From positions 137,280,207 to 137,344,206 of the forward strand of contig NC_050098.1 of the NCBI RefSeq assembly GCF_902167145.1: DNA of 64,000 bases, in the 5' to 3' direction. Under the pieces are notes generated by a model. The model was not told the origin of the DNA. It did no database searches and saw only the letters and a program-made list of their open reading frames with translations. This stretch comes from Zea mays (Eukaryota; Streptophyta; Magnoliopsida; Poales; Poaceae). The translations under genes were made by a program, and so were the position numbers. This document shows, piece by piece, positions 6,941-64,000 of the stretch (positions within the stretch are counted from its first letter, which is position 1; every line of letters starts with the position of its first letter).

Positions 6941-8407
6941 TCACGTTGCTGTTGGGAGTGCTGGCGCCCTTCTGGCTGCTGGCTTTGGGAATAGGTTGGT
7001 TGCAGTGGTGGTGGGGTGGGAGCTATGGCCATGAAGCTGTGAATGGCTAGCCGAAGCAACAGAAGCTGCAGGATGATTGCCCACATATTTTGGTATGTAG
7101 GGAGAGTGGCACGAAGCAGTGTGCAAGACCTGCTTCGGCTGATTCTGCCGAGCTTCGGCTTCTGCGATCTCCTTTTGCTTCAGAATGGTGATTTGGCACA
7201 TTCTGGTAGTATGGCCCTTGTCCTCACCACAGAATAAACAATAGATCTTCCTGGGCTGATCCCCATATCTCCCTCCGAAGCCCATGGCGCCTCTGCCCCT
7301 TGGAGCCGGCGGCCTGAAAGAGCTTTGCTGTTGCCCCGAAGATTGTGAGGTGTACTGTGGCCTCTGAAGCTGGCTTCCTTTGTCATCATTCTGACTGGAA
7401 TTGTGGATTGACCTGACATGCCTCGAGTGGACTCTTCCTCCGAAGCCTCTGGTCATCTCCTAGAATCTGTAAGCTTCCTCCCTTCTTTGGCGGAAGTCGT
7501 TGTCAGCCCAGATGTACTCATCCATCTTCTGAAGGAGCTTCTCCAGAGTTTGTGGGGGCTTCCTGGCGAAGTATTGAGCCGTAGGTCCTGGTCGAAGACC
7601 CTTAATCATGGCCTCAATGACAATTTTGTTAGGCACTGTGGGCGCTTGTGCCCTTAGTCGCAAGAACCTTCGGATATATGCCTGAAGATATTCCTCATGG
7701 TCTTGCGTGCACTGGAACAAGGCCTAAGCTGTTACTGGCTTCGTCTGAAAGCCTTGGAAACTGGTCACCAGCATGTCCTTGAGCTTCTGCCACGATGTGA
7801 TTGTCCCTGGCCAAAGGGAAGAATACCATGTCTAGGCCACGTTCCGGACTGCCATGACGAAGGACTTAGCCATGACAGCTGCATTGCCTCCATATGAGGA
7901 TATTGTTGCCTCATAGCTCATCAGAAATTGTTTTGGGTCCGAGTGCCCATCGTACATGGGTAGTTGGGGTGGCTTGTAGGATTGTGGCCATGGGATAGCC
8001 TGCAGTTCTGCTGCCAAGGGAGAAGCATCATCAAAAGTAAAGGTATCATGATTAAAATCATCATACCATCCATCTTTGTTGAATAAGCCCTCTTGACGAA
8101 GCTCCCTGTGTTGGGGCCTTCGGTCTTGGTCATCTTGAGCAAGATGACGCACTTCTTCAGTAGCTTCGTCGATTTTTCTTTGAAGATCGGCCAGCCGAGC
8201 CATCTTCTCCTTTTTCCTTTGCACTTGTTGATGGATGATTTCGATGTCCCTGATCTCTTGGTCCAACTCCTCCTCGTGGAGTGTTGGACTGGTGGCCTTT
8301 CTCTTCTGGCTTCGAGCCTCTCGAAGAGAGAGAGAGAGAGTCTCCTGGTTTGTGTCCAGTGGCTGCAGTGCAGCAGCCCCTGGCGCTGTTATCTTCTTCG
8401 GCGGCAT
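6941..8407 (-). pseudogene. gag: Gag polyprotein of the Tat-like element, three premature stops
   Basis: The likely start is the ATG at 8405-8407 (MPPKK...), 60 bp inside the PBS. The frame continues for about 488 codons. A Lys/Glu-rich helical N-terminus precedes the retrotransposon gag domain (about 8060-7500), seen in YDGHSDPKQFL and in the region starting YLQAYIRRFLRLR. An Arg/Gly-rich segment and a zinc knuckle, CLFCGEDKGHTTRMC (C-x2-C-x5-H-x4-C), follow. In-frame TAG stops lie at 7832-7834, 7724-7726 and 7457-7459; all could be CAG-to-TAG changes. The protein would form the particle and package RNA. No protease follows. Confidence 0.85.
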
Positions 8408-20931: not shown

Positions 20932-23821
20932 TGTCACACCCGGTTTTAGAAGGCAAACCGAATGTGAACCATGTACGTGCCAGGATCAACAATTCACGTA
21001 CACAGCAGTTACATAACATGGACATCATCACACAGTGCTCAAATAGTATTAAAAAGGGGAATAATAGTCGATTACATCATATGTCTGAGACACCCACATA
21101 GTCTTTACAATAAATCAAAGTGCGGAAAAGAAACGTAGATAAACGCGGCCTTCACAGGCAGCCAACTGGGGTTGCCGCTAACCCACGCCTAGAACTCATC
21201 ATAATCTTGGAACTCCTGATGGTCTCCTTCCACGGCTTCATCTTCTCCTGAGCAATGGTTGCAATGCTGACAACCTGGGGATGGGGGGTTTGGTGTGTAG
21301 AGCAAGGGTGAGTACACATCAACATACTCAGCAAGTATCCTGTTTGGCTGTAGTGGACTAGCTTTATGTGGGGGTAAGTCAAGCAGTTGCTTTTAGTTGG
21401 TCAGATTATTATTACTAGTAGAGAAAGCCAAGTTTTAGATTTAACCCACGTTATTAACCCAAACGTACTCCTTTCCAAATGGAAAGAGTACCACTTACCA
21501 TTACCAAAGTCAAAACCAAGAACCATCAGTCTCATTGCCACCTGCAATCCGAACATCTCTGATCAAGTACCACTAATCACTGGAGCTCCCTTGGCCGCTC
21601 ATAACCACGAGCACGGCTGATATATCAGTTTTCATACACTCTGCAGAGGTTGTGCACTTTACCCACAAGCCGTGATTCCCTTTCTGCCCGGAGAGAGCTA
21701 CTCCCCATTGACCACTACCTAGGTGGTCCAGCAGGGCATCACTACGTAGCCTTTACAAAGATTCCCCGGGGCTGTAGCCGCCCGTTAGGTTTTCTAAATG
21801 CACCACACTCCTCTCCAAGGGGCGAACCCAAGCTTGACAGAGCGAGCCGCATACACCGAGCCCCATTGACGGCACGACGGCTAAGCGAACTACACCCCGA
21901 ATCCTCTAATTATTCAGCTAAGGGCACCCCATTCCACCCTCATGGTTGCACTATTTTCCCAGGCGGTCATCCAACGAACAGGTTCTTACGGAGAGGCACT
22001 CGAGAAACCGCTCGAGCCCCCTTGAAGACCACAAATATAACATCATAATAAAAGAGGGGAAAACAGCGTATCATTGATAATTCTCATCATGTTCATTGAT
22101 TAGAGTTGAGCAATAGCATAAGATTAAGCAATAATAATCCAACCCAAATAGGTAAACAAGGACATGGATAACAAAACTAGTCAATCCTTAGGTATAACTG
22201 TGAAATGCGGGAGGTGAATTAAAGAATGTATAGGACAAAGATAGGTCAAGGGACACTTGCCTCTACCAACCGACTACTGCTCAGAGGCTTCTCCTGCGAG
22301 TTCTTCAGGCTCCTCAACCAGATCGTTCTCTATGCGAGCGCAAACATACATACATAATACAAAAGAACAATACACCATACAATAGAATGCAGTAAATAAA
22401 CAGACGTTCCACACGGGCTCGCAATTAAGGTTAAGAGAGAAAGAAAAAGACAGTCGAGAAACGATCACGTTACATGATTATAGATTAAATTACTCGCTCA
22501 ATGGAAGGGAATTAATTTGAACACTACGTTCAGCATAAAGTAAAGTCGAGCTCCACATTTAATTATTGTAAACAATTGAAGGTGAATGAAAGGGAGCCGT
22601 CGCACGCCGAGACGTACAACACGACATTTAGATTGAATTAAGAAGTGAATGACTCGCCGCGCGACAGAGCGCACAACGAGACACTTGCACTAATTTTTAA
22701 AGAGACGTTAAGCATCGTGCGACGAAGCGCACGACGACATACGCCAACAGGACTGAGTTAAAAGTGGAACGTCGCGCGTCTGGACGCGCGACATCGCACC
22801 TTAAACAACCTGAAATTAAAATAGATCGTCGCACGACGAAACGCGCGACACAACACTTTAATATTCATAAATTAAAAGAATCGTCGTGCGATGAAGCGCG
22901 CGACGCAGCACATCGACTAAACAATTTAAAATAGATTAAAACGAGATTAAGCGCAGTGCGACTACGGTCGCACGCGCGAAAGCACGTTACGCGAACCGTG
23001 AGGCACGCGGGACGCGAGTCGCCGGGGCAGGGGCGCGGCCGAGGGCGGGGCGCGGGGCCGGGCACGGCCGCCGGGGCGCACGACGAGGGCGCAGCCGCCG
23101 GGGCACGGCCGGGGAGCGGGGGCTCGCGACGAGGCGGGCTTGGCGAGGCGAGGGCGCGGCGGGCAGGGGCCGAGCCGCCGGCGTCGGGCGCGGGTAGGGG
23201 GCGGGCGCGACCGGGACGGGGCCCGCAGGGGCACGCGCGACAGGGGCAGGGGAGGGCGCACAGGGGAAGAAGGGGAGGGGAAGGAGAGAGAGAGGGAGAG
23301 GAAGGGGAGCGGAAAACTCACCTCCGGGGATCCAAATTCCGGCGATCTCGACTCCAAACCCTAGGGCACCACGGGGAGAGAGAGGTGGAAGAGGGAGAGG
23401 GATGTTGCTGCGCGGGAAATCCAAATGAGAGAGGGAGAGGAGGAGGGGGCGCATGGGGAGGTGGGCAGGGGCGCCAGGGGCGCGCGGGTCGGGCCGGGCT
23501 GGACCGGGCTGGGCTGGGTTGGGTCGGGCCACTTCGCGGATCGAAACCCACGACACACACGTCTGTCAAACAGACTCCAGTCGCGAACCGAAAACCGAGA
23601 CGGAACGAGACGGACACGCAACATCAGACAAAGAAATGTGCTTCAGCATGATGCAACACCCATGACACTTAGGTTTTGGTTTATACATGACACGGACACC
23701 TGTCACTATACTGGTTTGAAATTGGGAAGAAAGAGCGAAACAGGAAGAGAAAAGAGAGTAACGCCCGAATTTGGTGAGAGAAAAGAAGAAAAAATTCTAT
23801 CCCCAAATTCAGGGCATTACA
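20932..23821 (-). repeat. Solo LTR of a Tekay-type Gypsy element (2.9 kb)
   Basis: The ends are TGTCACACCC and GGGCATTACA, with perfect CCTAC duplications at 20927-20931 and 23822-23826. The sequence matches both LTRs of the full element at 46063-58623 over most of its length but with more differences. With no internal region and intact TSDs, it is a solo LTR left by LTR-LTR recombination. It carries the same CpG hairpin array and G-rich block as its relatives. Confidence 0.9.
22585..22990 (-). repeat. CpG-rich hairpin array in the solo LTR
   Basis: About seven imperfect inverted repeats of the form GTCGCGCGACGAAGCGCGCGAC recur every 55-60 bp, separated by AT-rich spacers. Many units here have G-to-A or C-to-T changes (for example TCGTGCGATGAAGCGCGCGAC) relative to the younger LTR copies. 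Confidence 0.7.
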
Positions 23822-41325: not shown

Positions 41326-44300
41326 TGTCACACCCGGATTTAAGGGACAAAGTCGGGTGCATCTCATATATGCGCCAAAAAAGACAACACATATAATAAC
41401 AGAGTGTATAGAGATAAATGGCACAATACCATCAGAGTACTTATTACATAGCAGAAGTCTTACAAAATAAAAGATAAATATAAAACGAACTAAAGTCCAT
41501 CATTGGCGCCATAAAGTCAACTGGGAGACGCCACATAGATCAAGTCGAACTCCTCGTTGTGGGCTCCTCTTGAACCACCTGTTCTTCTCCTATGGGGGGT
41601 GTGAGACAGCAAGGGTGAGCTCACACATGTTCATCGCTCAACAAGTTATGGGGAATAATGTGCATGAACTCTCCAAAGGTGGGAGTTCATGTGATGTGTA
41701 AGACTGATCAATAATAGGGGTTAAAGCTGAGCATTGCTTTTATTAAGTTGGTCAAATTTTGTTAGCATTTACTAAATGTAAGTAAATACCAAACCATAAT
41801 AAGAATAGAATAAAATTAATAAATAATCCCATGCAATGCAAATGACAAATTGAATTTAGCTCCATAATTTAATCATGCGAGAGTCCTGAGCTGCTCATGA
41901 CCGTGAGCTCTGCTATTATACCGGTTTTACACTCTGCAGGGGTTGTACCCTGTACCCAAAAGTCATGTTACCCATCTGCCACGGGTTGTACGGGCCCCAT
42001 ACACCTCTACCAAGGAAGTGAGACAGGATAACACTACGAGGCCTTTACAAAGTTCCACTAGCTTCCGAAAACCCGCTACAGTATGGGAAGAGCAATTGTA
42101 GGAATCCCTCGACTGACCACCATCGCAGCAAAATCAACCCGAGAACCTCCCTACATGCCTACTCCCCTACTGCCCTTTCCCCTTTCGGGTAAGGTAGTCT
42201 TCCACTAGCTTTCCTAATTAGTCAGCCAAGGGCGTCCCATTCCACCCTTGTGGTGGCACGTGTTTCTCAAGTTAAGCTCCATGTTCCAATTAAAATTAAT
42301 GATCTTGACATGAACATAAATAACATAACAGAATAATTGGAACATGGATATAATGAAATATTAACCCAAAACCATATACAGCGATAGCAAAACTACCCAA
42401 ATGATTCGGGGGTAAACAAGGTAAAAAATATTCAGACTAGGGTGACCTATTGGGTCCCATCAAAATTAAACCTATGCGTGAATAAGTGATATTAAAGAAC
42501 ATTATTAGGTAAAAAGTGGTCAAGGGCACAACTTGCCTAGGACTTGAGATTCCAGGTACCAGGATGCTCTTCAAATGACTCGTGACCTCATTGCTAGTCG
42601 TAGCAATACAAACAAACATGGTATAGACAAAATCAACATCACACCAAACATAAGAACAAACTGCATAGTACTAATCTATGTGTTGCTACGAGATCGTGGG
42701 TTCGCGAACCACTAAATTCAGAGTTACGGTTGAGGAGTTATGATTTATGGTAGATCTATGTGATGAAGCAATTGAAACTAGGTCTTGAGTTTATTTTACA
42801 AAGATAATCTAATGAAATAATCATTTCACCTTTAATCTTAATTATAACTTGACTAGAGATTATATTTTAATCAAATTATAATTATAAGATCCGAATACTA
42901 TATTAATATTAGAAAAGTTAAACCATAAAACATAGATTAATCAAATTAGTTACCTAATTATAAAAGTATGGGATATCATATAATCATTGTTGCTATTGTG
43001 TAGTAAATATTTATATGAAGCTAACGCAACTGGAACGAGTCAATTCAGAATTAAAACAGAGGAGTTATAAATTTCTGAAGGTTTTATGTATTTGATACAA
43101 GATTAATTAAGAGATATATTTTAATATGGCTTTCATGTCAAAACAGAGACACTAGTTGATAAACAATAATATTACAAAACTATAGAAACTGGAATTACTC
43201 AATTTGGAATTAGTATGAATTTCCTATGGATTAAACAAATTCTATTCATTATTTTATATTAAAAATATATTTCCAATTCAATTTCTCTAATTTACAAACT
43301 CTCTGGACTGGGCGCATGAAAACCAGAGAGTGCAGGGGCCTCGGTGTAACAATTCCTAAGACACAGAGCGACTGGCGTCAGGACTGCGGGTTAAATCTCT
43401 AAAAACTGAGGGGCTCAATCGCTAAACCTACCGGCCGAAGCGGTATCAGTTGATATGGATCGTCCCATCAAATGCGAGCGGCGAGGATTAAATCAGCGCC
43501 CCTCACGAACCGGTATGCTTCTACGGCCGTTGGATCCTGGATCGAGGATCCAGATTTAATTCTCCCAAGTTCTAGTTCCCACCGTACGATGCGAGATTGA
43601 CGGTTCAGATCGTGTTGAACGAAACAGTATGCTATGTTCTAATCTCGTCCGCCCGCGTCCGATCCGACGGCCAGTATTTCTCCCTCACATTGCTTCAACA
43701 GGACACCGGAGCCAGCACCAGGCACACTGGCGCCGCCGCCGACCGCGGCAATCCCCCTGCCCAATTCCGGTGACCAAGTCCAATCGCGACTCTCCCCTGG
43801 GCGCAACCTATTGCCTAACGCATGGCGAACCTGACCCTAAGCTCAATTCCGTGGATGGGGCCCTGCGCACACTAGTTCTTCGCAATGACGCGGTCCGGCT
43901 ACGCCGTAGCAATTACGTCGGCGAGAATCCAACCCTCCATAGCCCCAACACGGTCATATGTGGGCGCAAATCGGTACTACGGACCAAATGAACACGGTGG
44001 GGAAAGAAATTTTACCGCAGAGGGAGTGGTAGATCGACCCCGACGGTGAAGCCCGCGTCCACGGCCTTCTTCTTCGATTCTGTTGGGCAATTCACCCTCC
44101 ACAGCCGTCTTCCGATGCTAGATCTCACTCGTGTGTGTTCCCGCTTTCTGGCACTACCCGCGACCACCACACGCACACCTCAGCAGCGGCGGCGGGACGA
44201 TACTACCCGATTTATCCCCTTCGAGCTCTCCCTGGTAATGGCGGCCGACTCTTTTGAGTTCTAGATAACGGAAGGTGGTCAAGGGTTTCGGGTGATGGGA

Positions 44301-45283
44301 ACGTGGCCTTAATACGTGCAGGTGTGCGGTGGTCTCACGAATTCTGAGGTCTCCGGCGAGCTTCTCGCGCAAGGTGGGCGCGGTCCGCGCGGCGAAGTCG
44401 GAGTGTTCAGTTGGAGAAGATGGGGAATGGTATGACAAGGGGGTCCCACGAGCCCACGAGTCAATGATAGGTGGCGCTGCGCAGGAACACACTGAGTCTA
44501 GTATGCGGGCCCCACCGGTCGGTCACTACGGCTTTGCGGGTGAGCAGATGAGAGGCTGCGATGCGGGCCCGGCCTGCCAGCGACAGCGCGCGCAGGGAGT
44601 AAAAAGTGGGCTGCCAGCGGAGGGAAAGAAGTGGGGGTAAGTGGGCCGAGTGCGGAATTAGGCCCAAAGGCGTGTCTTTCTTTTTATTTTATAATTTTCT
44701 TATCTGAATTCCTCACAATTTCAAACTTAGTATTTTGAATTCAAATTTGATGGTGAGTTTCCCAATTTGAGTGCACAAATTAAGTACCAACCTGAAGAAT
44801 TATAATTATTTATATATATTTTTCTTTGTAATATATTTTCCATTTTTGTTTCATTCTCTTCTCCTTCCATTTTTCAAATTCCAAATACGAATTTGTAATT
44901 CAAACTTAGAGTCAAAATCAAAATATCCAGCATGATGCAACTTTATTTAACTATTTATTTATTACTTTATTTATTCAAATAAGTGTTCCTTAATATACAT
45001 CACACTCAACAGAGGATTTTGTTTTAAGAACTTATCTTTTGATGTGCCTCCCAAAGGTGTAGAAATTCGTTATTCATTATCTGTTTATTTTAAAAGGAGG
45101 TAATGTATACTCTTGTTAAGAGTTAATTAAATTACAAGTACAAGTATTTATACTTAAGAAGGGGAACAAATCAATAGAGTCTCTTTCTACTATTTATTTC
45201 CATCCCAATATTTAATTCTAGACTTGAATGACTTATACTTTCTTTTCTCATTTTTTTCTCTTCCATCAATTTTAGGTCTTACA
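41326..45283 (-). repeat. 3' LTR of the non-autonomous Gypsy element (3958 bp)
   Basis: It runs from TGTCACACCCGG to TTTAGGTCTTACA. Several stretches resemble the nested Tekay LTR in order and wording (for example the ACACTCTGCAG-GGTTGT and CCTTTACAAAG blocks near 41930-42060), so the families share ancestry. It includes a GC-rich block near 43400-44640. The open frames within it (43629-43991, 44154-44492, 44329-44640) recur in decayed form in the other LTR and are not called genes. Confidence 0.85.
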
Positions 45284-45776: not shown

Positions 45777-47729
45777 TTCTGTTTGCGGTTGCTTGATAGT
45801 CCTCCCTTCCTGGTATTGACCATCGGAGTTAGAAGCATATGGTAAAAATAGTTTTGCAAGAGAAATTATTTGATAGGTAGAACGAATAGGCTAGTAGCTG
45901 GTTATGAACTGAAGATTCTTTGGCAGGGCTTTATCTGTTGTTTTATGTCAAGATTGGGATAACTAGTCATTTAAGGCGAATGTCCAAAAGTATGATAGAA
46001 TCTGTCAAGATAAGATAGATATGGGTGAGGTAAACTACATGATGTAGGTCAGGATCTAGTTTTGTCACACTCGGTTTTAGAAGGCAAACCGAATGCGAAC
46101 CATGTACGTGCCAGGATCAGTTATTCACGTACACAACAGTTACATAACATGGACATCATCACACATTGCTCAAAATAGTATTAATAAGGGAAATAGTCGA
46201 TTACATCATACGTCTGAGACGTCCATATAGTCTTTACAATAAATCAAAGTGCGAAAAAGAAACGTAGATAACCGCGGCCTTCACAGGCAGCCGACTGGGG
46301 GTTGCCGCTAACCCACACCTAGAACTCGTCGTAATCTTGGAACTCCTGGAAGTCTCCTTCCACAGCTTCATCTTCGCCTGAGCAGTGGTTGCAATGCTGA
46401 CAACCTGGGGATGGGGGGGGGGTTTGGTGTGTAGAGCAAGGGTGAGTACACATCAACATACTCAGCAAGTATCCTGTTTGGCTGTAGTGGACTAGCTGTA
46501 TGTGGGGATAAGTCAAGCAGTTGCTTTTAGTTGGTCAGATTATTACTTACTAGTAGAAAGCCAAGTTTTAGCATTAACCCAAATTATTAACCCGATGTAC
46601 CCTTTCCAAACGGAAAGAATACCACTTACCAGCACCATAGTCATAACCAAAACCATCAATCTCATAACCACATGTACCAAAGTATCTCTGATCAAGTACC
46701 ACTAATCACTGGAGCTCCCTTGGCCGCTCATAACCGCGAGCACGGCTGATATATCAGTTTTCAAACACTCTGCAGAGGTTGTGCACTTTACCCACAAGCC
46801 GTGATTCCCATTCTGCCCGGAGAGAGCTACTCCCCATTGACCACTACCTAGGTGGCCTAGCAGGGCATCACTACGTAGCCTTTACAAAGATTCCCCGGGG
46901 CTGTAGCCACCCGTTAGGTTTCCTAAATGCACCGCACTCCTCCCCAAGGGGCGAACCCAAACTTGGCAGAGCGAGCCGCATACACCGAGCCCCATTGACG
47001 GCACGACGGCTAAGTGAACTACACCTCGGATCCTCCAATTATTCAGCTAAGGGCATCCCATTCCACCCTCATGGTTGCACTGTTTTCCCGGGCGGTCATC
47101 CATAGAACAGGTCCTTACGGAGAGGCACTCGAGAAACCGCTCGAGCCCCCTTGAAGACCACAAGCATACATCATAATAAGAGAAGGGAAAACAGCGTATC
47201 ATAGATAATCTCATCATGTTCATTGATTATAGTTGAGCAATAGCATAAAGCTAAACAGTAATAATCCAACCCAGATAGGTAAACAAGGACATGGATAACA
47301 AAAGCTAGTCAATCCTTAGGCATAAATGTGTAAAGCGGGAAGTGAATTAAAGAATGAATAGGACAGAGATAGGTCAAGGGACACTTGCCTCCACCAACCG
47401 ACTGCTGCTCAGGAGCTTCTCCTGCGAGTTCCTCGGGCTCTTCGACCGGATCGTTCTCTATGCGAGCGCAAACATACATACATCCACATATTTAATACAA
47501 AAGAACAGTACACCATACAATAAAATGCAATAAGTAAACAGACGTTCCACGCGGGCTCGCGAGTACGGTTAAGAGAGAAAGAGGAAAAGACAGTCGAGAA
47601 ACGATCACGTTACATGATTATAAATTAGCCACTCGCTTAATGGAAGGAAATTTAATGTAGACACTATGTTTAGCGTAAAGTAAAGTCATGTTTCATGTCT
47701 AGTTATTATAAGCAGGTGGAGATAAATAA

Positions 47730-48055
47730 AAGGATGGTCGCGCGGCGAGACGCGCGACAAAGCTCTCTAAAACAAATTAAAAAGTTAACGACTCGTCGCG
47801 CGACCGAGCACGCAACGAGACACTTCGCCTTAGTTAAGAGGAGACGTTAAGCATCGCGCGACGAAGCGCACGACGGCATACGTCGACTAAACTGAGTCCA
47901 AAGTGGAACGTCGCGTGAATACACACGCGGCGTTACACCTTAAACAACCTGAAACAAAAATGGATCGTCGCGCGACGAAGCGCACGACGCAACACAAAAT
48001 AGAATCTGAATTTAGACAAATCCGTCGCGCGGCGAAGCGCGCGACGCAACACGCT
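47730..48055 (-). repeat. CpG-rich hairpin array in the 3' LTR
   Basis: Six imperfect inverted repeats like GTCGCGCGACGAAGCGCACGAC are spaced about 55-60 bp apart, near 47735, 47790, 47853, 47908, 47963 and 48021. Each can fold into a stem of 7-9 bp with a GAAG-type loop. Confidence 0.75.
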
Positions 48056-48129
48056 AATTAACGAGTAATCACCGCGAGCGCGGGCGAGCGAAGATACGGT
48101 CGAGCGAGGCTGAGACGGGGGAACGGGCG

Positions 48130-48700
48130 GCCGAGCTGGGGCCAGGGCGGTTGAACCGGCCAGGGGCGGGGGCGCGCGGGCGAGCGGGGCTCGCCGCGCC
48201 GCGGGAGGGCGCTGGGCCACCACGGCCGGCCGAGCCGAGGGGCGGGGCGGGCGAGCGCCACGCGCAGGGGCCGGGGCAGGGCCGAGCGCCGCCGCGAGGG
48301 AGGCCGGGCGGGGGCCGAGCGCCGCCGGGGAGGCCGGGGCGGGGGTCGAGCGCCGCCGGGGAGGAAGGGGCGGGGCCGGGCGCCGCCGGGGAGGGAGGGG
48401 GAGGGGCCGAGCGGGGGGGGGGGGGGGGGGGAGCGGGGGCTGAGCGCCGCCGGGAAGGGAGGCCGGGCGGGGGGCCGAGCGCCGCCGCGGGCGAGCGGGG
48501 AGGGGCGGGCAGGGACGCCGCCGCGGGCCGGGGTGGGGGGGAGTGCCGCCGCGCCGGGCAGGGGCGGGGACGGGCGCCGCCGCGCCGGGCAGGGGCGGGG
48601 ACAGGCGGGGTCGCGCGCGGGCATGGGGAGAGGGAGGGCGCGCGCGGGGGGAAGAAGAGGAGGGAGAGGGAGAGAGAGGAGAAGGGGAGGGGAGCTCACC
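48130..48700. repeat. G-rich low-complexity tract (potential quadruplexes) in the 3' LTR
   Basis: The + strand is mostly GGGG-containing units such as GCCGCCGGGGAGG and GGGGCGGGG, with 19 consecutive G at 48413-48431. The equivalent run in the other LTR (57857-57873) has 17 G. The transcribed (minus) strand of the LTR would be C-rich. Confidence 0.8.
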
Positions 48701-49207
48701 TCGGGGTCCAAAATCCGGTGATCGCCGTCTCCAAATCCTAGGGCACCACGGGGAGAGAGAGGTGGAAGAGGGAGAGGAGAGGTTGTTGCGCGGGAGATCC
48801 AAATGAGAGAGAGAGAGGGGAGGGGGCGCATGGGGGGTTTGGGCGCCAGGGGCGCGCAGGCCGGGCGGGCCGGGCCGGCTGGGCTGGGCTGGACTAGGTT
48901 GGGCCGGGCCACTTCGCGGATTAAAAAAACCCACGACGAGCGCGGACCACTAAACGGAATTAAATCGCGAATCGAAATCCGGAACGGAACGAGACGAACA
49001 CTCAACATCAGACAAAAAATGTGCTTCGGCATGATGCAACACCCATGACACTTAGGTTTTGGTTTATACATGACACGGACACCTGCCGCTATATTGGTTT
49101 GAAATTGGGAAGAAGGAGCAAACGGGGAAAGAGAAAAGAGAGTAACGCCCGAATTTGGTGAGAGAAAAGAAGAAAAAAAATTCTACCCCCAAATTCAGGG
49201 CGTTACA

Positions 49208-49243: not shown

Positions 49244-52200
49244 TCAGGGTTGGCTAGCAAAGAGCTCAGGGTATTTAGCCATCAGATCATCTTCACGCTC
49301 CCAGGTTGCTTCTTCCTCTGAGTGATGATTCCATTTGACTTTGCACATTCTGATGGTCTTCCTTCGGGTGACTCTGTCTGCAACCTCAAGGATTTGCACT
49401 GGCTTCTCAACGTAGGTCAAGTCCTCCTGGACTTCAAGACCTTCCACTGGCAACTGCTCTTCTGGCACATGCAAGCACTTCTTCAACTGAGACACATGAA
49501 AGACATCATGCACAGCAGACAAATTCTCGGGCAAATTGAGCTGATAGGCCACTTCTCCATGTCTTGCAAGAATCTGATACGGACCAATGTAGCGGGGTGC
49601 TAGCTTGCCTTTCACTCCGAATCTTCTGACTCCTCTGATCGGTGACACTTTCAGATAGACAAATTCTCCGACTTCGAAACTCAGCTCTCTTCTTCTTGTG
49701 TCTGCATAGCTTCGCTGCCTCGATTGCGCTATCTTCAGATTCTCTCGGACCATCTTGATGTTCTCTTCGGCTTCAAGCAAAATGTCTGGCCCAAACACTT
49801 GCTTTTCTCCAGGCTGATCCCATTGCAACGGAGTTCTACAACTCCTTCCATAGAGCGCCTGAAATGGTGACATCTTCAAACTGGCCTGGTAACTGTTGTT
49901 ATAGGAAAACTCTGCATAAGGCAATCTCTTATCCCATCCGGACTGGTCTTGCAATGCACAGGCTCTCAACATATCTTCCAGAATTTGATTGGTCCTTTCG
50001 GTCTGGCCATCTGTCTGCGGATGATAAGCTGAACTGAAATTCAGATGCGTGCCCAAAGCTTCATGCAACTGCTGCCAGAAATGAGAGGTGAACTGCGTTC
50101 CTCTGTCTGACACTATCTTCTTTGGCACACCATGAAGACAAACGATCCGAGACATATACAACTCTGCCAATACGACACTACTGTAGTTGGTCTTGACAGG
50201 TATGAAGTGGGCTGACTTGGTCAAACGGTCCACTACTACCCAAATGGAATCGTAGCCGGCTCGAGTGCGAGGCAATCCGACTATGAAATCCATACCAATT
50301 TCATCCCATTTCCACTGAGGGATCTGCAACGGTTGCAACAATCCAGCAGGTCTCTGGTGTTCTGCCTTAATTCTTCGACAACTATCGCACATAGCTACAT
50401 GCTCTGCGATTTCCCTCTTCATTCCGTACCACCAGAATTTCTTCTTCAGATCCTGATACATCTTCTCACTGCCAGGGTGAATCGAATAGGCTGTCTCATG
50501 AGCTTCCTTGAGAATCAACTCCCGAATGGACTGGACATTGGGAACACACAAGCGGTCTTTGAACCATATCACGCCTTCTGCATCTTCTCGAAAATCTTTG
50601 CCTCTGCCATCTAGAATCAGTCGCCGGATCTCACTGATCTTCTCATCATTCTTCTGCGCTTCTTTGATTTCGCGCTCCAAGGTAGGTTCCAACTCAACTG
50701 TGACTCCTCGCGAATTGTTCAGAAATCCGAGACTCAACCTGTCAAACTCCTTGGCCAACTCATAAGGCATCGGACGAGCGACCATCAGATTGACTTGACT
50801 CTTTCTGCTCAAAGCATCTGCCACTACGTTTGCTTTGCCTGGATGGTAATGAATTTCCAACTCATAGTCTTTAATCAACTCTAACCATCTTCGTTGCCTC
50901 ATGTTCAACTCTGACTAAGTGAATATGTACTTCAGACTCTTGTGGTCTGTGTAAACATCGCATTTCTGTCCATACAGATAGTGCCTCCATGACTTCAGTG
51001 CGTGAACCACTGCTGCCAACTCTAGATCATGGATTGGGTAATTCTTCTCATGAACCTTCAGCTGTCGGGACGAGTAAGCCACAACTCTTCCCTCTTGCAT
51101 CAACACACATCCCAAACCTGTGTAACAAGCATCGCAATACACCGAGAAGGGCTTGTGCACATCAGGCAAGACTAGGACAGGCGCTGTTGTCAACTTCTCT
51201 TTCAGCGCCTCAAAGGCCTCTTGACATTTCTGGGTCCACTTGAACTCAACCTTGTTGCCTAGCAACGCTGTCATTGGTTTCGCAATCTTCGAAAACCCTT
51301 CAATGAATCGCCGATAATATCCGGCCATTCCAATGAAGCTCTTGATTCCTCTAGCATCTGTTGGCGCTTTCCAGTTCAGAATGTCTGCCACTTTCTTCGG
51401 ATCCACAGCCAATCCTTCTTTGATGATTATGCGACCCAAGAACAGGACCTCACTGATCCAGAACTCACACTTGCTCAACTTTGCATACAACTGGTGCTCT
51501 CGCAATCTCTGCAATACCATCCTCAAATGATCTGCGTGCTCCTCTTCGCTTTGAGAATAAACCAGAATGTCATCAATGAATACCACCACAAACTTATCAA
51601 GGTAATCCATGAATACACTATTCATCAAGTTCATGTAGAACGCTGGCGCATTGGTCAAACCAAAAGACATCACTGTGAACTCATACAAACCATACTTGGT
51701 AATGAATGCCGTCTTCGGAATGTCCGAAGGTCGGATCCTGAGCTGATGATAACCTGACCTCAGATCAATCTTGGAGAACACACTGGCTCCTCTCAACTGG
51801 TCGAACAGATCTTCAATTCTGGGCAAGGGATACTTGTTCTTGATCGTGACCTCATTCAAAGCTCGATAATCAATACACATCCTCTTGGTGCCATCTTTCT
51901 TTTCCACGAACAAGACAGGGGCGGCCCAAGGCGAGGTGCTTGGCCGGATGTAACCTTTCTCTGACAACTCATCAATTTGCTTCTTAAGCTCAACCAACTC
52001 TGGTCCAGATATTCTGTAAGCTCTCTTGGAGATAGGGGTGGTTCCAGGAAGAAGCTCTATAGCAAACTCAACCTTCCGCTCTGGTGGCATACCCGGTAAG
52101 TCCTTTGGAAACACATCTGGGAACTCGGACACAACCTTGATACTCTCGATTGGGTCTGCTTCACCGCTATCAACAGCTATCTGATAACAACTTCCTTTCT

Positions 52201-53797
52201 TTGGCTCAGGCGGGACTAACTCGGTCACCACTTCCTCTCCTAGTGGGGACACCAACTTGATTGTCCTCTTATCACAACTGATAACTGCCTGATACTTATC
52301 TAGCCAATTCATCCCTAGGATGACATCTATTCCCTGAGTACCCATTACTATAAGGTTGGCGGGACACGCTATCCCCCTTATTTCCACACTTATATTCAAA
52401 CAAATGCTATCGGCTCGAATTCTACCACCGGCTGAGTCGATTTGAATGGGGGTTGACATGGTAGTAACTGGAAGATTATGTGCTTCTACCCATGATGCAG
52501 TAATGAAAGAATGCGTTGCTCCAGTATCAAATAACACTTCTGCAATATGGGAGTCGACTGGGAACATACCTACTATCATGCCGGGGGTCTCCTGAACTGC
52601 TTCAGCTTCCAAGTGGTTCAGCCTTCCATGATTGTAGCGCGGCTGAGAGCGATTGCCTGTTCTGGGCTGAGGCACATTCTGCTTTGCTGGGGCATTGGGG
52701 CCTGACTGCTGCTGGGCTGCCTTCTTCGGACATTGCATCACCCGGTGGCCTTGCTCTCCACAGTGGAAACATGCTCTGTTTCCAACCTGAGCTGGTGCTG
52801 CCTGATTGTTCTGCTGGTTTGTTGGGGTAGGAAGACGAGGTGCCTGCTGATTCTGCCTCTGAAACTGACCTCCTGACTGATTGCTCTGACGGTTCTGGTA
52901 CTGATGCTGAGGATACTGCCTTTGAAACTGCTGATGCTGCTGAGGTGGACGCTGGTTCTGCCTGAACTGCTAAGGTTGATTGCCTGAGAAACGAGGACGA
53001 TTGCTGCTTCCAGGCTGGGGTCCACTGATCTTGCACTTACGATCTTCCATCTCCTTGCGCTTCCTCTCTGTCATGATTGCTCTGTCAATCAGGTGCTGGA
53101 ATATTGGGAAGGTGTGATTCATCAGTTGGTACTGCAGAGGGTCAACCAAGCCTCTCAAGAAACGGTACTGCCGCTTGGCGTCGGTGTTGACATCTTCAGG
53201 AGCATAGCGAGACAATTGCAGAAACCTGTCCCGGTACTCACTGACAGACGATGGCCCTTGCTTGAGGGCCAGGAACTCCTCCTTCTTCACAGTCATCAGA
53301 CCTGCGGGAACATGGTACTGACGAAAGCTACCTCTGAACTCTTCCCAAGTGATGGCGTCAGGGTGGGCATGGGTGGCGAGGTAAGACTCCCACCATGATT
53401 GGGCTGCTCCTCTCAACAGACGGGGACCATACAGAACTTTCTCCCTGTCATCGCACTGAGCGGTATGCAACTCACGCTCCACAGTGCGCAGCCAGTCTTC
53501 AGCATCCATGGGGTCAGAAGAATGAGCGAACGTTGGTGGATGACCTCTCATGAATTCAGCACGCTTGTCTCTGGGCATCTGAGGCTGAGGTGGGGCCTGC
53601 TGCTGTTGCTGCTGCTGCTGCTGAATGGCGGCCAAAGTCTGACCGATGGCTTGAACTACCTGAGTTTGCATCAGAAACATCTGCTCGATGGACATCGGGG
53701 GCGGGGGCGGCAGGTGCTGCTGCTGGGGCACCTCTACCTGTTGAGCGGCTCGCTCCTGCTGAGCACGCCTTCCTCCTCTGCGCCTGTTCTCTGACAT
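49244..53797 (-). pseudogene. gag-pol: Tekay gag-pol polyprotein, two amber stops
   Basis: The frame runs from ATG 53795-53797 (MSENRRRGG) for 1517 codons. Stops are TAG at codon 276 (52970-52972) and codon 962 (50912-50914); both could be former CAG. Domains are gag (about 50-270), zinc knuckle [14 protein letters not shown] (343-356), aspartic protease DTGATHSF (from 424) and reverse transcriptase with FIDD at 740-743. RNase H begins around residue 900 with a DACYTGLG motif. Integrase follows with an H-H-C-C zinc region and MDFIVGLP, SDRGTQFTS and GQTERTNQ motifs carrying the catalytic D, D, E. A C-terminal chromodomain-like segment (KVKWNHHSEEEATWE) ends it. It would supply particle, protease, cDNA synthesis and integration. 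The final chromodomain type is known to target H3K9-methylated chromatin in chromoviruses. Confidence 0.93.
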
Positions 53798-54200
53798 CTG
53801 CAGAATGCAACCACACATCAGAACTGATCTGGCAAATCTTGCAGCATAAGAAAAGAGTATAGAATTCTTCGACAGCACTGAACAAATGAGCATCTTCACT
53901 GATCTCCAACACAGACCACACAGCTTCTCAGATAAAGAGGAGAGTGGAATAAAAGGTTTCCCAACTATATAACTAACTCCATTAACATAATAGGTAAACC
54001 TAAATGCGGGGGATACCCACACTCTGGTGACAGTCATTACAAAGATCCAAACCAAACATCGTTCATCATGACAAACATAAATGCACAGGATATAGCAAAC
54101 TACCCTGTCTAACTAAGACTAACTAAGACTGAGACTGACGCTAAGACTGTAGCTTCTATGTATATATTTCGTATTAATTACACGATCCAACTCTAACGAG
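53798..54200 (-). other. Intron-like spacer between the extra ORF and gag
   Basis: The 400-bp spacer on minus is T-rich and ends TTGCATTCTGCAG immediately before the gag ATG, which looks like a 3' splice site. No matching donor was pinned down. The gag frame is open through its last 86 codons, which is probably chance. Confidence 0.4.
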
Positions 54201-55214
54201 CTATGGTTCTAGATTTATCTTGGTCTTGCAGTCGGGGTTGCCATAAGACTGGTGTCCACGCTGAGGTGAGCGGTACGGGTGCTGAGTCCCGACGGGAGCG
54301 GGGGAACCACCATCCAAGTGACGACGTTCCGCGCGCTCAGCCCACAGCAGGGCGATCTCAGCACGAGCCCTACTCAGCTCGTCTAGTGCATGGTCCAGCT
54401 CCGTGTTTAGCACGGCGGCTAGGTTGACTGTGCTGCTCAACCTAGGATTGCCCTCACCGACAGGTGAGACAATCACGCCTCCTGTGCTGCCAGATGGACG
54501 GCGGGGGTAATACTTCAGGTCAAGACCGTCAGCTGCCCCACCGAAAACCGAGCAGTAGTGCGAAAGCGCACGCCGTGCAGCATCTTGCATGGCTGCCTCA
54601 GCTGAGTCCCTCTCAGAGATGGAATAGTGCTCTGAGCAGGCCTCCGCACCCTGGAGACTGTTCTCCGGGCAGCGCACCAAGCAGGTTGCCTCCCAGCGGT
54701 CCGGGTAGACCCCGCGACTGTGCTGGTAAACCACACAGCGATACTCGACGGACCAAGTATGCCGGTTAAATGCCCGACGTAGCAGGGTGTCGAGCGCATC
54801 GTGGAAGTGACACCCGTGAGCAGCGTCGCGAGTGATGGGTCGAGCAACCCATCCTTCCGGCTCAGGGTTAGCAGAGAAGTCAGTGTCGTGGCTCGAGCTG
54901 TCGTCGCCACCTCCGTCGTCTGGGTCTCCTCCAGCAGCTACTCCAGAAGCTGGGACGCCCGGTGGTGATGCAGGGGGCACCTCCAAAGGAAGCACAGGGG
55001 AGCAGCTCCTCACAGACTCTATCTCCTGGTGGAGCGAGAAAGAAGAGCCCTGCTGCTCCTGTCGTCGACGTTCCTGCTCCTCACGCAGGCGGTGGTGTAG
55101 TCTCTCCAAGTGGCTGGACTGTCCAGCCACAGGACGGCGAAGCGGACGCTCAGCAAGGCGGGAGGGTAAGAAGGGGATGACTGACTTTCATGCAGTGTGT
55201 CTAAGTCGAGCCAT
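54201..55214 (-). pseudogene. Extra ORF upstream of Tekay gag; histone H3-tail-like start, one stop at codon 9
   Basis: On minus an ATG at 55212-55214 opens a 338-codon frame, 244 bp downstream of the PBS. The first codons read M-A-R-L-R-H-T-A, then TGA (55188-55190), then K-S. This parallels the H3 N-terminus A-R-T-K-Q-T-A-R-K-S, with the TGA where H3 has Arg8. The remaining 329 codons are open. They comprise a Gln/Glu/Arg-rich helix (about 35-58), a Ser/Pro/acidic low-complexity part (60-118), a globular segment (about 135-225) with helix-strands-helix spacing like a double-stranded-RNA-binding fold, and a predicted coiled coil (about 264-298). ORFs of unknown function occur before gag in some grass Gypsy elements; I cannot name this family. 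Reinitiation could start at a later codon such as the GTG at 55128-55130. Confidence 0.7.
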
Positions 55215-55457
55215 CTACAAAAGACATCGCAAGCAAAAGGGTGAGAACAGAATTGATATGACCAGCAAATAATGAATCGTAAGTAAATGAAGGATTAGAA
55301 TAAAACATGATTTTCAGCAAGGTATAATATATAGTAGAACATAGGTTTGGTCGGTATGACCAACTTTTGAAGGGATATCAAAGTCAAGGCAGAGACAGAG
55401 GTCTATAGTCCTTAGAACGACCATTCTACTCTAGGTTAGCGGTCCTACAGTCAGCAC

Positions 55458-55470
55458 GGCTCTGATACCA
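55458..55470 (-). promoter_or_regulatory. Primer binding site (tRNA-iMet) of the Tekay element
   Basis: TGGTATCAGAGCC on minus, 4 bp inside the 5' LTR edge, is the standard initiator-tRNA complement. Confidence 0.95.
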
Positions 55471-55474
55471 CTTA

Positions 55475-58400
55475 TGTCACACCCGGTTTTAGAAGGCAAA
55501 CCGAATGCGAACCATGTACGTGCCAGGATCAGTTATTCACGTACACAGCAGTTACATAACATGGACATCATCACACAGTGCTCAAAATAGTATTAATAAG
55601 GGAAATAGTCGATTACATCATACGTCTGAGACGTCCATATAGTCTTTACAATAAATCAAAGTGCGAAAAAGAAACGTAGATAACCGCGGCCTTCACAGGC
55701 AGCCGACTGGGGGTTGCCGCTAACCCACACCTAGAACTCGTCGTAATCTTGGAACTCCTGGAAGTCTCCTTCCACAGCTTCATCTTCGCCTGAGCAGTGG
55801 TTGCAATGCTGACAACCTGGGGATGGGGGGGGGTTTGGTGTGTAGAGCAAGGGTGAGTACACATCAACATACTCAGCAAGTATCCTGTTTGGCTGTAGTG
55901 GACTAGCTGTATGTGGGGATAAGTCAAGCAGTTGCTTTTAGTTGGTCAGATTATTACTTACTAGTAGAAAGCCAAGTTTTAGCATTAACCCAAATTATTA
56001 ACCCGATGTACCCTTTCCAAACGGAAAGAATACCACTTACCAGCACCATAGTCATAACCAAAACCATCAATCTCATAACCACCTGTACCAAAGTATCTCT
56101 GATCAAGTACCACTAATCACTGGAGCTCCCTTGGCCGCTCATAACCGCGAGCACGGCTGATATATCAGTTTTCAAACACTCTGCAGAGGTTGTGCACTTT
56201 ACCCACAAGCCGTGATTCCCATTCTGCCCGGAGAGAGCTACTCCCCATTGACCACTACCTAGGTGGCCTAGCAGGGCATCACTACGTAGCCTTTACAAAG
56301 ATTCCCCGGGGCTGTAGCCACCCGTTAGGTTTCCTAAATGCACCGCACTCCTCCCCAAGGGGCGAACCCAAACTTGGCAGAGCGAGCCGCATACACCGAG
56401 CCCCATTGACGGCACGACGGCTAAGTGAACTACACCCCGGATCCTCCAATTATTCAGCTAAGGGCATCCCATTCCACCCTCATGGTTGCACTGTTTTCCC
56501 GGGCGGTCATCCATAGAACAGGTCCTTACGGAGAGGCACTCGAGAAACCGCTCGAGCCCCCTTGAAGACCACAAGCATACATCATAATAAGAGAAGGGAA
56601 AACAGCGTATCATAGATAATCTCATCATGTTCATTGATTATAGTTGAGCAATAGCATAAAGCTAAACAGTAATAATCCAACCCAGATAGGTAAACAAGGA
56701 CATGGATAACAAAAGCTAGTCAATCCTTAGGCATAAATGTGTAAAGCGGGAAGTGAATTAAAGAATGAATAGGACAGAGATAGGTCAAGGGACACTTGCC
56801 TCCACCAACCGACTGCTGCTCAGGAGCTTCTCCTGCGAGTTCCTCGGGCTCTTCGACCGGATCGTTCTCTATGCGAGCGCAAACATACATACATCCACAT
56901 ATTTAATACAAAAGAACAGTACACCATACAATAAAATGCAATAAGTAAACAGACGTTCCACGCGGGCTCGCGAGTACGGTTAAGAGAGAAAGAGGAAAAG
57001 ACAGTCGAGAAACGATCACGTTACATGATTATAAATTAGCCACTCGCTTAATGGAAGGAAATTTAATGTAGACACTATGTTTAGCGTAAAGTAAAGTCAT
57101 GTTTCATGTCTAGTTATTATAAGCAGGTGGAGATAAATAAAAGGATGGTCGCGCGGCGAGACGCGCGACAAAGCTCTCTAAAACAAATTAAAAAGTTAAC
57201 GACTCGTCGCGCGACCGAGCACGCAACGAGACACTTCGCCTTAGTTAAGAGGAGACGTTAAGCGTCGCGCGACGAAGCGCACGACGGCATACATCGACTA
57301 AACTGAGTCCAAAGTGGAACGTCGCGTGAATACACACGCGGCGTTACACCTTAAACAACCTGAAACAAAAATGGATCGTCGCGCGACGAAGCGCACGACG
57401 CAACACAAAATAGAATCTGAATTTAGAAAAATCCGTTGCGCGGCGAAGCGCGCGACGCAACACGCTAATTAACGAGTAATCACCGCGAGCGCGGGCGAGC
57501 GAAGATACGGTCGGGCGAGGCCGAGACGGGGGAACGGGCGGCCGAGCTGGGGCCAGGGCGGTTGAACCGGCCAAAGGCGGGGGCGCGCGGGCGAGCGGGG
57601 CTCGCCGCGCCGCGGGAGGGCGCTGGGCCACCACGGCCGGCCGAGCCGAGGGGCGGGGCGGGCGAGCGCCACGCGCAGGGGCCGGGGCAGGGGCGGGCGC
57701 CGCCGCGAGGGGAGGCCGGGCGGGAGCCGAGCGCCGCCGCGAGGGAGGCCAGGCGGGGGCCGAGCGCCGCCGGGGAGGCCGGGGCGGGGCCGAGCGCCGC
57801 CGGGGAGGAAGGGGCAGGGCCGAGCGCCGCCGGGGAGGGAGGGGGAGGGGCCGAGCGGGGGGGGGGGGGGGGGCGAGCGGGGGGCCGAGCGCCGCCGGGG
57901 AGGCCGGGGCGGGGGCGCGCGCCGCCGCGGGCGAGCGGGGAGGGGCGGGCAGGGACGCCGCCGCGGGCCGGGGTGGGGGGGAGCGCCGCCGCGCCGGGCA
58001 GGGGCGGGGACGGGCGGGGTCGCGTGCGGGCATGGGGAGAGGGAGGGCGCGCGCGGGGGGAAGAAGAGGAGGGAGAGGGAGAGAGAGGAGAAGGGGAGGG
58101 GAGGGGAGCTCACCTCGGGGTCCAAAATCCGGTGATCGCCGTCTCCAAATCCTAGGGCACCACGGGGAGAGAGAGGTGGAAGAGGGAGAGGAGAGGTTGT
58201 TGCGCGGGAGATCCAAATGAGAGAGAGAGAGGGGAGGGGGGGCGCATGGGGGGTTTGGGCGCCAGGGGCGCGCAGGCCGGGGCGGGCCGGGCCGGCTGGG
58301 CTGGGCTGGACTAGGTTGGGCCGGGCCACTTCGCGGATCAAAAAAAACCCACGACGAGCGCGGACCACTAAACGGAATTAAATCGCGAATCGAAATCCGG

Positions 58401-58623
58401 AACGGAACGAGACGAACACTCAACATCACACAAAAAATGTGCTTCGGCATGATGCAACACACATGACACTTAGGTTTTGGTTTATACATGACACGGACAC
58501 TTGCCGCTATATTGGTTTGAAATTGGGAAGAAGGAGCAAACGGGGAAAGAGAAAAGAGAGTAACGCCCGAATTTGGTGAGAGAAAAGAAGAAAAAATTCT
58601 ACCCCCAAATTCAGGGCGTTACA
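55475..58623 (-). repeat. 5' LTR of the Tekay element
   Basis: This 3149-bp LTR is nearly identical to 46063-49207. Visible differences are mostly single bases and length changes in the G-rich tract (17 versus 19 G, and block indels near 57700-58020). It should carry the promoter for the genomic RNA; no clear TATA box was found near the 5' end on minus. Confidence 0.95.
57140..57470 (-). repeat. CpG-rich hairpin array in the 5' LTR
   Basis: The same six inverted-repeat units are present as at 47730-48055, with only isolated base changes (for example CATCGCGCGACG becomes CGTCGCGCGACG near 57262). Confidence 0.75.
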
Positions 58624-60916: not shown

Positions 60917-63900
60917 TGTCACACCCAAATTTAAGGGACAAAGTCGGGTGCATCTCATATATGCGCCAAAGAAGACAACACATATAATAACAGAGTGTAT
61001 AGAGATAAATATCACAATATCATCAGAGTACTTATTACATAGCGGAAGTCTTACAAAATAAAAGATAAATATAAAATGAACTAAAGTCCATCATTGGCGC
61101 CATAAAGTCAACTCGGAGACGCCACCTAGATCAAGTCGAACGCCTCGTTGTGTGGCTCCTCTTGATCCACCTGTTCTTCTCCTGTGGGGGTGTGAGACAG
61201 CAAGGGTGAGCTCACACATGTTCATCGCTCAACAAGTTGTGGCGAATAATGTGCATGAACTCTCCAAAGGTGGGAGTTCATGTGATGTGTAAGGCTAATC
61301 AATAATAGGGGTTAAAGCTGAGCATTGCTTTTATTAAGTTGGTCAAATTTTATTAGCAATTACTAAATGTAAGTAAATACCAAACCATAATAAGAATAGA
61401 ACAAAATTAATAAATAATCCCATACAATGCAAATGACAATTGAATTTAGTTCTATAATTTAATCATGCGAGAGTCCTAAGCTGCTCATGACAGTGAGCTC
61501 GGCTAGTATACCAGTTTTACACTCTGCAGAGGTTGTACCCTATACCCACAAGTCGTGTTACCCATCTGCCACGGGGTTGTACGTGCCCCATACACCTCTA
61601 CCAAGGAAGCGAGCCAGGGTAACACTATGAGGCCTTTACAAAGTTCCACTAGCTTCCGAAAACCCGCTACAGTTTATGGGAAGAGCAATTGTAGGAATCC
61701 CTCGTCTGACCGCCATCGCAGCAAAATCAACCCGAGAACCTCCCTACATACCTACTCCCCTACTGCCTTGCCCATTTCGGGTAAGGTAGTCTTCCACTAG
61801 CTTTCCTAATTAGTCAGCCAAGGGCGTCCCATTCCACCCTTGTGGTGGCACGTGTTTCTCATGTTAAGCTCCATATTCCAATTAAAATTAATGATCTTGA
61901 CATGAACATAAATAACATAACAAAATAATTGGAACATGGATATAATGAAATATTAACCCAAAACCATATAAAGCGATAGCAAAACTACCCAAATGATTCG
62001 GGGGTAAACAAGGTAAAATATATTCAGACTAGGGTGACCTATTGGGTCCCATCAAAATTAAACCTATGCGTGAATAAGTGATATTAAAGAACATTGTTGG
62101 GTAAAAAGTGGTCAAGGGCACAACTTGCCTAGGACTTGAGATTCCAGGTACCAGGTTGCTCTTCAGATGACTCGTGACCTCACTACTGGTCATAGCAATA
62201 CAAACAAACATGGTATAGACAAAATTAACATCACATCAAACATAAGAACAAACTGCATAATAATAATCTATACGTTGCTACGAGAACGTGGGTTCGCGAA
62301 CCACTAAATTCAGAGTTACGGTTAAGGAGTTATGATTTATGGTAGATCTATGTGATGAAGCAATTGAAACTAGGTCTTGAGTTGATTTTATAAAGATAAT
62401 CTAATGAAACAATCAATTCAACTTTAATCTTAATTATAACTTGACTAGAGATTATATTTTAATCAAATTATAATTATAAGATCCGAATACTATATTAATA
62501 TTAGAAAAGTTAAACCAGAAAACATAGATTAATCAAATTAGTTACAAAATTATAAAAGTATGGGATATCATATAATCAATGTTGCTATTGCGTAGTAAAT
62601 ATTTATATGAAGCTAACGCAACTGGAACGAGTCAATTCGGAATTAAAACGGAAGAGTTATAAATTTTAATATGGCTTTCATGTCAAAACATAGACACTAG
62701 TTGATAAACAATAATATTACAAAACTATAGAAACTTGAATGACTCAATTTGGAATTAGTATGAATTTTCTATGGATTAAACAAATTCTAGTTATTATTTT
62801 TATATTAAAAATAGATTTCCAATTCAATTTCTCTTATTTACAAACTCTCTGGACTGGGCGCATGAAAACCAGAGAGTGCAGGGGCCTCGGTGTAAGAATT
62901 CCTAAGACACAGAGTGACTGGCGCCAGGACTGCGGGTTAAATCTCTAAAAACTGAGGGGCTCAATCGCTAAACCTACCGGCCGAAGCGGTATCAGTTGAT
63001 ATGGACCGTTCGATCAAATGCGAGCGGCCAAGATTAAATCAGCGCCCCTCGCAAACCGGTATGCTTCTACAGCCGTTGGATCCAGGATCGAGGATCCAGA
63101 TTTAATTATCCCAAGTTCTAGTCTCCACTGTACGATGCGAGATTGACGGTTCAGATCGTGTTGAACGAAACGGTATGCTATGTTCTAATCTTTTCCGCCC
63201 ATGTACGATCCGATGGCCATGATTTCTCCCTCACATTGCTTCAACAGGACATCGGAGCCAGCACCAGGCACACCGGCGGCGCCACCGACCGTGGCGATCC
63301 CCCTGCCCAATTTTGGTGACCAAGTCCAATCGCGACTCTCCCCTGGGCGCAACCTGTTGCCTAACACATGGCGAACCTGACCCTAAGCTCAATTCCGTGG
63401 ATGGGGCCCTGCACACACTAGTTCTTCACAATAACGCGGTCCGACTACGCTGGAGCAATTACGTCGGCAAGAATCCAACCCTCGATAGCCCCAACACGGT
63501 CATATGTGGGCGCAAATCGGTACTACGAACCAAATGAACATGGCGGGGAAAGAATTTTTACCGCAGAGGGAGTGGTAGATCGACCCCGACGGTGAAGCCC
63601 GTGTCCACGACCTTCTTCTTCGATTCCGTTTGGCAATTTGCCCATCACAGCCGTCTTCCGATGCTAGATCTCACTCGTGTGCGTTCCCGCTTGCTGGCAC
63701 TACCCGCGACCACCGCACGCACACCTCAGCAGCAACGGCGCGGCGACGCTACCCGATTTATCCCCTTTTGAGCTCTCCCTGGTAATGGTGGCTGACTCTT
63801 TTTAGTTCTAGAGAACGGAAGGTGGTCAAGGGTTTCGGGTGATGGGAACATGGCCTTAAGACGTGTAGGTGCGCGACGGTCTCGCGAACTCCGAGGTCTT

Positions 63901-64000
63901 CGGCGAGCTTCTTGTGCGAGGTGGGCGCGGTCCACGCGACGAAGTCGGAGTGTTCGGTTGGAGAAGATGTGGAAGGGTATGACAAGGGGGTCCCACGGGT
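60917..64000 (-). repeat. 5' LTR of the non-autonomous Gypsy element (cut by the window edge)
   Basis: It starts TGTCACACCCAAATTTAAGGG and follows 41326-44455 closely, with scattered substitutions and small indels. About 0.8 kb should lie beyond the right edge. The short frames inside (61555-61800, 63313-63537) match decayed counterparts in the left LTR and are not genes. Confidence 0.88.

Follow-up and report, generated by a model that had tools for sequence, protein, structure and literature searches.

Retrosat2, RIRE3 and RIRE8, with their grass homologues, are elements of more than 12 kb with long terminal repeats (LTRs) of more than 3 kb and an extra frame upstream of gag, as described in the available part of PMC3485330. 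In Tekay elements of maize and sorghum a frame named 5'aORF occupies the same position (PMC11728184, available part); it shares with the frame analysed here, in a low-confidence model, a mixed alpha/beta part and then a long C-terminal helix. The same layout, compared by description, is found in a Ty3/gypsy chromovirus of 12.6 kb on the minus strand of the Zea mays DNA analysed here (64,000 nucleotides of NC_050098.1, positions 137,280,207 to 137,344,206; the window). LTR ends are likewise similar, TGTCACACCC...GGGCGTGACA in the published elements (PMC3485330, available part) and TGTAACGCCC...GGGTGTGACA here, a likeness by description and not by sequence alignment. The open reading frame between the primer-binding site (PBS) and gag, here called ORF0, is by position and layout a decayed copy of the known ORF0/5'aORF of grass Tekay-type chromoviruses; no named Retrosat2, RIRE3, RIRE8, maize or sorghum ORF0 is among its listed relatives, and assignment to the published ORF0 is made by these two features. 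ORF0 begins with a conserved block of 27 residues that includes a likeness to the tail of histone H3.

ORF0 (55214..54201, minus strand) reads M-A-R-L-R-H-T-A-(TGA)-K-S at its start, as reported in the first-pass annotation of this DNA, in which the start was put forward as a possible imitation of the H3 tail around Lys9. Residues A1, R2, T6, A7, K9 and S10 of mature H3 are matched, and the frame is open after the TGA up to its final TAG (338 codons counting the TGA). An in-frame TAG stands immediately 5' of the ATG, and no other ATG of the frame comes before that of codon 209; the start is therefore at the MARLRHTA ATG, barring splicing. A sense frame of at least 250 codons between PBS and gag, the threshold for grass 5'aORFs taken from PMC6317226, is present, with one stop in the window copy and open in relatives. 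A chance open frame was considered and dropped, hundreds of relatives being found. The parts of ORF0 are located as follows.

54201..55214, minus strand: ORF0/5'aORF, with one in-frame TGA at codon 9.
55134..55214, minus strand: conserved N-terminal block, residues 1-27, containing the H3-like residues 2-11 (clade consensus comparison).
54495..54863, minus strand: conserved core, residues 118-240; low-confidence prediction of a beta-alpha-beta-beta-beta-alpha fold (AlphaFold2; Foldseek and VIA comparisons).

At least 846 proteins matched ORF0 (stop entered as X) at E ≤ 1e-3 in a first protein search, 120 of them listed. A second search, started from residues 40-335 alone of a more remote match, gave 810 proteins, again with 120 listed; its hits were therefore not picked by their N-terminus. 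Both searches together list 236 distinct relatives. The start is visible in 106 of these, which are in register at residues 31-40; most of the remaining 130 begin farther downstream. A stricter start filter (Ile-Pro at residues 12-16) retained 101; the five relatives added by the residues 31-40 filter keep at least six of residues 2-11, and the conclusion is the same. Relatives without the stop at codon 9 exist, with up to 95% identity to the window copy. Clade consensuses were built from the 109 listed relatives of at least 300 residues (three clades, n = 69, 13 and 27), and N-terminal conservation was assessed within clades of roughly 70% identity and above. A third search, aimed at ORF0 families farther away and run with a query shifted in length to 637 amino acids (proteins of about 350-1115 amino acids only, number scored capped at 7992), returned at least one protein, which also carries reverse transcriptase (RT) domains. 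No ORF0 relative was found by tblastn over viral contigs and genome contigs.

The clade consensus starts MAR(L/I)R(H/C)TARKSVIPFLPSRLAERPLRR, as MARLRHTARKSVIPFLPSRLAERPLRR in two clades and MARIRCTARKSVIPFLPSRLAERPLRR in one. Conservation of the A-R-x-x-x-T-A-R-K-S start in relatives without the stop, on which the first-pass proposal had been staked, is found within the family: A1, R2, T6, A7, R8, K9 and S10 (H3 numbering) are present in all three clade consensuses. The A-R-K-S/T motif is conserved in the family, ARKS being present in 74 of the 106 start-aligned listed relatives, TARKS in 71, the lysine in 104 and all seven H3-identical residues in 56. Residues 1-27 of the clade consensuses differ pairwise at 0, 2 and 2 positions, the rest of the protein at 68/312, 79/312 and 76/314. 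Segments of 27 residues with equal or fewer differences number 2/313, 30/313 and 64/315 for the three clade pairs; they start at residues 1-17, 31 and 119-146, plus 189-207 for one pair (for which 60 of 64 starts are listed). Other segments being equally invariant, the N-terminus is, in these alignments, one of a few constrained blocks and not the sole one.

Conservation is not focused on the H3-like residues. Its mean among the 106 relatives is 0.914 at the H3-identical positions and 0.923 at residues 12-27; at the three H3-unmatched positions within residues 2-11 it is 0.975, with both clade variants accepted. At Ile13, Pro14, Leu16, Ser18, Leu20 and Leu25, all of which differ from H3, conservation (0.97-0.99) is as high as at the lysine (0.98). 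The conserved block extends 16 residues past the H3-like part, and residues 12-27 match H3 at 2 of 16 positions (H3 residues 1-10 taken from the first-pass annotation).

ORF0 is read tentatively, with somewhat less than even confidence, as an accessory RNA-binding protein whose N-terminal block serves ORF0 itself, the H3 likeness being coincidental or secondary. Intact ORF0 would bind RNA, perhaps structured or double-stranded, by its beta-alpha-beta-beta-beta-alpha core, with helical regions predicted to flank the core on either side. The first 27 or so residues would form a conserved basic peptide motif for contact with a partner, RNA or the import machinery. The protein may act in the nucleus or on element RNA, for example in shielding from silencing, handling or export, and its mRNA may be a spliced one with the acceptor right before the ATG.

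The core model (residues 118-240, AlphaFold2) has a mean pLDDT of 52.8 and a pTM of 0.39. The DRBM fold is alpha-beta-beta-beta-alpha; the low-confidence prediction for the core is beta-alpha-beta-beta-beta-alpha. A weak DRBM-like match (TM 0.35-0.37) is given for the maize and sorghum 5'aORFs in the available part of a 2024 paper (PMC11728184). Foldseek with the core model gave a best E of 0.37 among the families listed by that search; with the full-length model (mean pLDDT 42) the best E was 1.0, which is not meaningful. PDB sequence searches reached a best E of 2.3 (P0002) and 0.51 (A3 profile). In Pfam at E up to 1, P0002 and P0012 had no hit, and P0074 had weak hits to three families. At E up to 10, 115 members matched 29 families, and the profile of the double-stranded RNA-binding domain (dsRBD) is not among the 25 of these that are listed.

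A possible but less probable reading, which overlaps with the preceding one, takes the N-terminal block for a targeting signal, nuclear or organellar, or for a basic arm that binds RNA. Residues 1-27 of the consensus are basic, seven being Arg and one Lys against one acidic residue, and the grass 5'aORFs studied in PMC11728184 (available part) are predicted to be nuclear. The IPFLPSRL stretch within the block is strongly conserved, however, which suggests a specific contact and not bulk charge.

The chromovirus has LTRs of 3.15 kb that are 97.1% identical by self-comparison, and it is flanked on both sides by the 5-bp duplication AAACT, read from the sequence. The primer at the PBS is presumably the initiator tRNA-Met; a purine tract is present ahead of the 3' LTR. 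Domain order after the LTR and PBS is gag, protease, RT, RNase H, integrase (Pfam), the layout of a Ty3/gypsy chromovirus. The window copy is broken, with one stop in ORF0 and two in gag-pol. A gag/pol frameshift was considered and dropped, gag-pol being one frame with two stops. The remaining features are as follows.

55475..58623, minus strand: 5' LTR (self-comparison; ends from the sequence, limits approximate).
55459..55470, minus strand: PBS TGGTATCAGAGC (sequence).
55215..55471, minus strand: leader, GC content 0.39, with four upstream ATGs and a splice-acceptor-like 3' end, CTTTTGTAG, abutting the ORF0 ATG.
53798..54200, minus strand: ORF0-gag spacer, GC content 0.39, with a splice-acceptor-like 3' end, GCATTCTGCAG, abutting the gag ATG.
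49244..53797, minus strand: gag-pol, single frame with two in-frame stops (Pfam on separate pieces; stop count).
49259..49375, minus strand: chromodomain-like integrase end, apparently with one of three cage aromatics kept (Pfam, PDB sequence search).
46063..49207, minus strand: 3' LTR (self-comparison with the 5' LTR).

LTR stretches 57344-58489 and 47933-49071 are very GC-rich (reaching 0.92 over 200 bases in the 5' LTR) and carry long open frames on both strands, probably an effect of composition. CCAAT motifs and a TATA-like box lie near the very start of the LTR (58486-58526, minus strand); if used, they would give a leader of more than 3 kb with 55 ATGs before ORF0. A solo LTR at 20932-23821 (minus strand), with GTAGG on either side, is 88% identical to the LTRs of the element over the main aligned piece and 81-84% over another. 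A pair of direct repeats of about 3 kb (41326-44450 and 60917-63997, 92-95% identical), the second reaching near the window end, surrounds the chromovirus, which seems from this arrangement to be nested within another long-LTR element. Other repeat pairs, 92-97% identical (518-1527/16131-17141, 1684-2351/8470-9138, 9139-9982/17334-18196), are perhaps other nested elements.

The ATGs of ORF0 and gag both stand directly after splice-acceptor-like TGYAG (55205-55223 and 53790-53806, minus strand). TGTAG or TGCAG precedes only five of the 2480 ATGs on both strands of the whole window, the starts of ORF0 and gag among them; the chance of two given ATGs both falling among the five is about 3e-6, for a pattern spotted before counting. 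GC content is 0.61 in ORF0 and 0.57 in the first 600 bases of gag, against the 0.39 of leader and spacer; in grasses introns are AT-rich and exons GC-rich, like leader and spacer versus frames here. TGYAG before both ATGs, the AT-rich leader and spacer and the four upstream ATGs fit alternative 3' splicing, and suggest 3' splice sites that would place either ORF0 or gag first on the mRNA. Candidate donors are GGTAAGT at 56040 and GGTGAGC at 58113. The former is identical in three LTR copies and is nevertheless a weak candidate, because much of the surrounding sequence is equally conserved.

Rev is a precedent for the export of unspliced RNA. ORF0 could be a Rev-like or Cer1-like factor, a product of spliced RNA that aids the nuclear exit of unspliced genomic RNA, and the two acceptor-like sites, the base composition and the upstream ATGs would agree with it. 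The TGYAG-ATG layout is observed in one copy only, however, and the donors are candidates; such a role is considered unlikely. In the available part of a 2025 review (PMC12786077), plant LTR elements are generally without introns, Ogre and EVADE being exceptions, and BARE1 is spliced too; Cer1 makes a nuclear protein from spliced RNA that is required to export unspliced RNA.

Mimicry of any kind is judged unlikely. The consensus of the relatives is identical to H3, in register, at 7 of 10 positions. With approximate residue compositions, at least 7 matches in 10 have a probability of 3e-7 to 6e-6, and when the 26-residue N-terminus was shuffled 1,000,000 times, 7 matches never occurred. The comparison with H3 was picked post hoc, the choice being among many frames of the window and all known motifs. 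Against PDB chains the 27-residue ORF0 start gave no phmmer match at E up to 10; the resemblance, unlikely for one given protein, is not significant in the database sense. Influenza NS1, which has been studied experimentally, is a histone mimic in which the protein of a selfish element copies the H3 tail, at the opposite protein end from ORF0.

A histone mimic proper would carry a processed A-R-x-R-x-T-A-R-K-S that imitates H3 near Lys9, serves host H3K9 methyltransferases as a substrate or host readers as a ligand, and titrates or recruits silencing factors. This is improbable, and histone mimicry is not specifically supported by the sequence comparisons. The first-pass claim of imitation around Lys9 holds as far as the start is conserved; it fails where constraint should centre on the H3 residues, these being no better conserved than residues 12-27, with two further H3 matches in the 16 positions beyond residue 11. 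Two points weigh in the opposite direction, against a coincidental likeness. Each of the three clade consensuses equals H3 at the seven positions, and the sole clade-level changes within residues 2-11 (residues 4 and 6) hit positions unmatched to H3, although both changes would miss all seven matches by chance in 3 of 45 cases. Arg3, Ala8 and Arg9 often vary among the start-aligned relatives (to H, C, W, Q, T), a pattern that resembles the decay expected of methylated cytosines once a copy is dead; such decay blurs any conservation test and could mask constraint on these residues.

Non-histone proteins G9a, WIZ and ADNP carry A-R-K-S or similar around a lysine, as does ORF0, and such contexts are known or proposed targets of writers and readers (available parts of PMC10611923 and PMC3022755); the likeness of ORF0 to them is one of sequence. 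In ADNP the ARKS motif has a part in heterochromatin association, but a methylated ARKS peptide failed to bind HP1 (PMC3022755, available part). Less probable still is a combined reading, in which an RNA-binding ORF0 made from spliced mRNA would by an H3K9-like tail engage the host H3K9 methylation machinery, decoying it from, or recruiting it to, the RNA or chromatin of the element.

The integrase of the element had been named in the first-pass annotation as ending in a chromodomain that reads methylated H3K9. The chromodomain itself is borne out: Pfam Chromo matches the C-terminus at E 6.9e-5 (23.1 bits, just under the curated cut-off of 25.1), and a PDB search with the integrase end returned 17 chains at E up to 1 (best E 2.4e-5), with several chromodomain proteins among them. 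Two of the three cage aromatics appear to be missing. In a weak alignment with HP1 beta (E 0.044; cage positions from the available part of PMC3350952 and HP1 numbering) the cage Trp is kept, with Val and His at the first and third positions. As far as this weak alignment goes, Val-Trp-His resembles the pattern of plant group II chromodomains, in which the first and usually the third cage aromatic are missing; fusions of these localise to heterochromatin, and their interacting factor was not found (PMC3350952, available part). A methylated ORF0 tail that binds the element's own chromodomain, steering or blocking integration, would join two partners encoded in one element and is very improbable, because that chromodomain apparently lacks two of three cage aromatics; binding to host readers is possible.

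The ORF0 type is already known; new here, by the literature searched, are the conserved N-terminal motif, its H3 likeness and the TGYAG-ATG lead. In that limited collection, which says nothing of other papers, neither the motif nor its H3 likeness was found described, no paper combined retrotransposon and TARKS, and the papers pairing histone mimic with LTR retrotransposon were, judging by title and start of abstract, none on plants. The word histone is absent from the main text of PMC3485330.

ORF0 proteins are found in abundant grass retrotransposons (such as rice Retrosat2; PMC3485330, available part) and are without an established function. In this family their conservation is now pinned to a near-invariant N-terminal peptide and an alpha/beta core, both of which lend themselves to peptide and RNA-binding assays. 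Should the TGYAG sites before the two ATGs be in use, a chromovirus would join the spliced LTR elements of plants. If the start truly mimicked H3K9, a transposon would have in it a direct tool against, or with, the silencing machinery.
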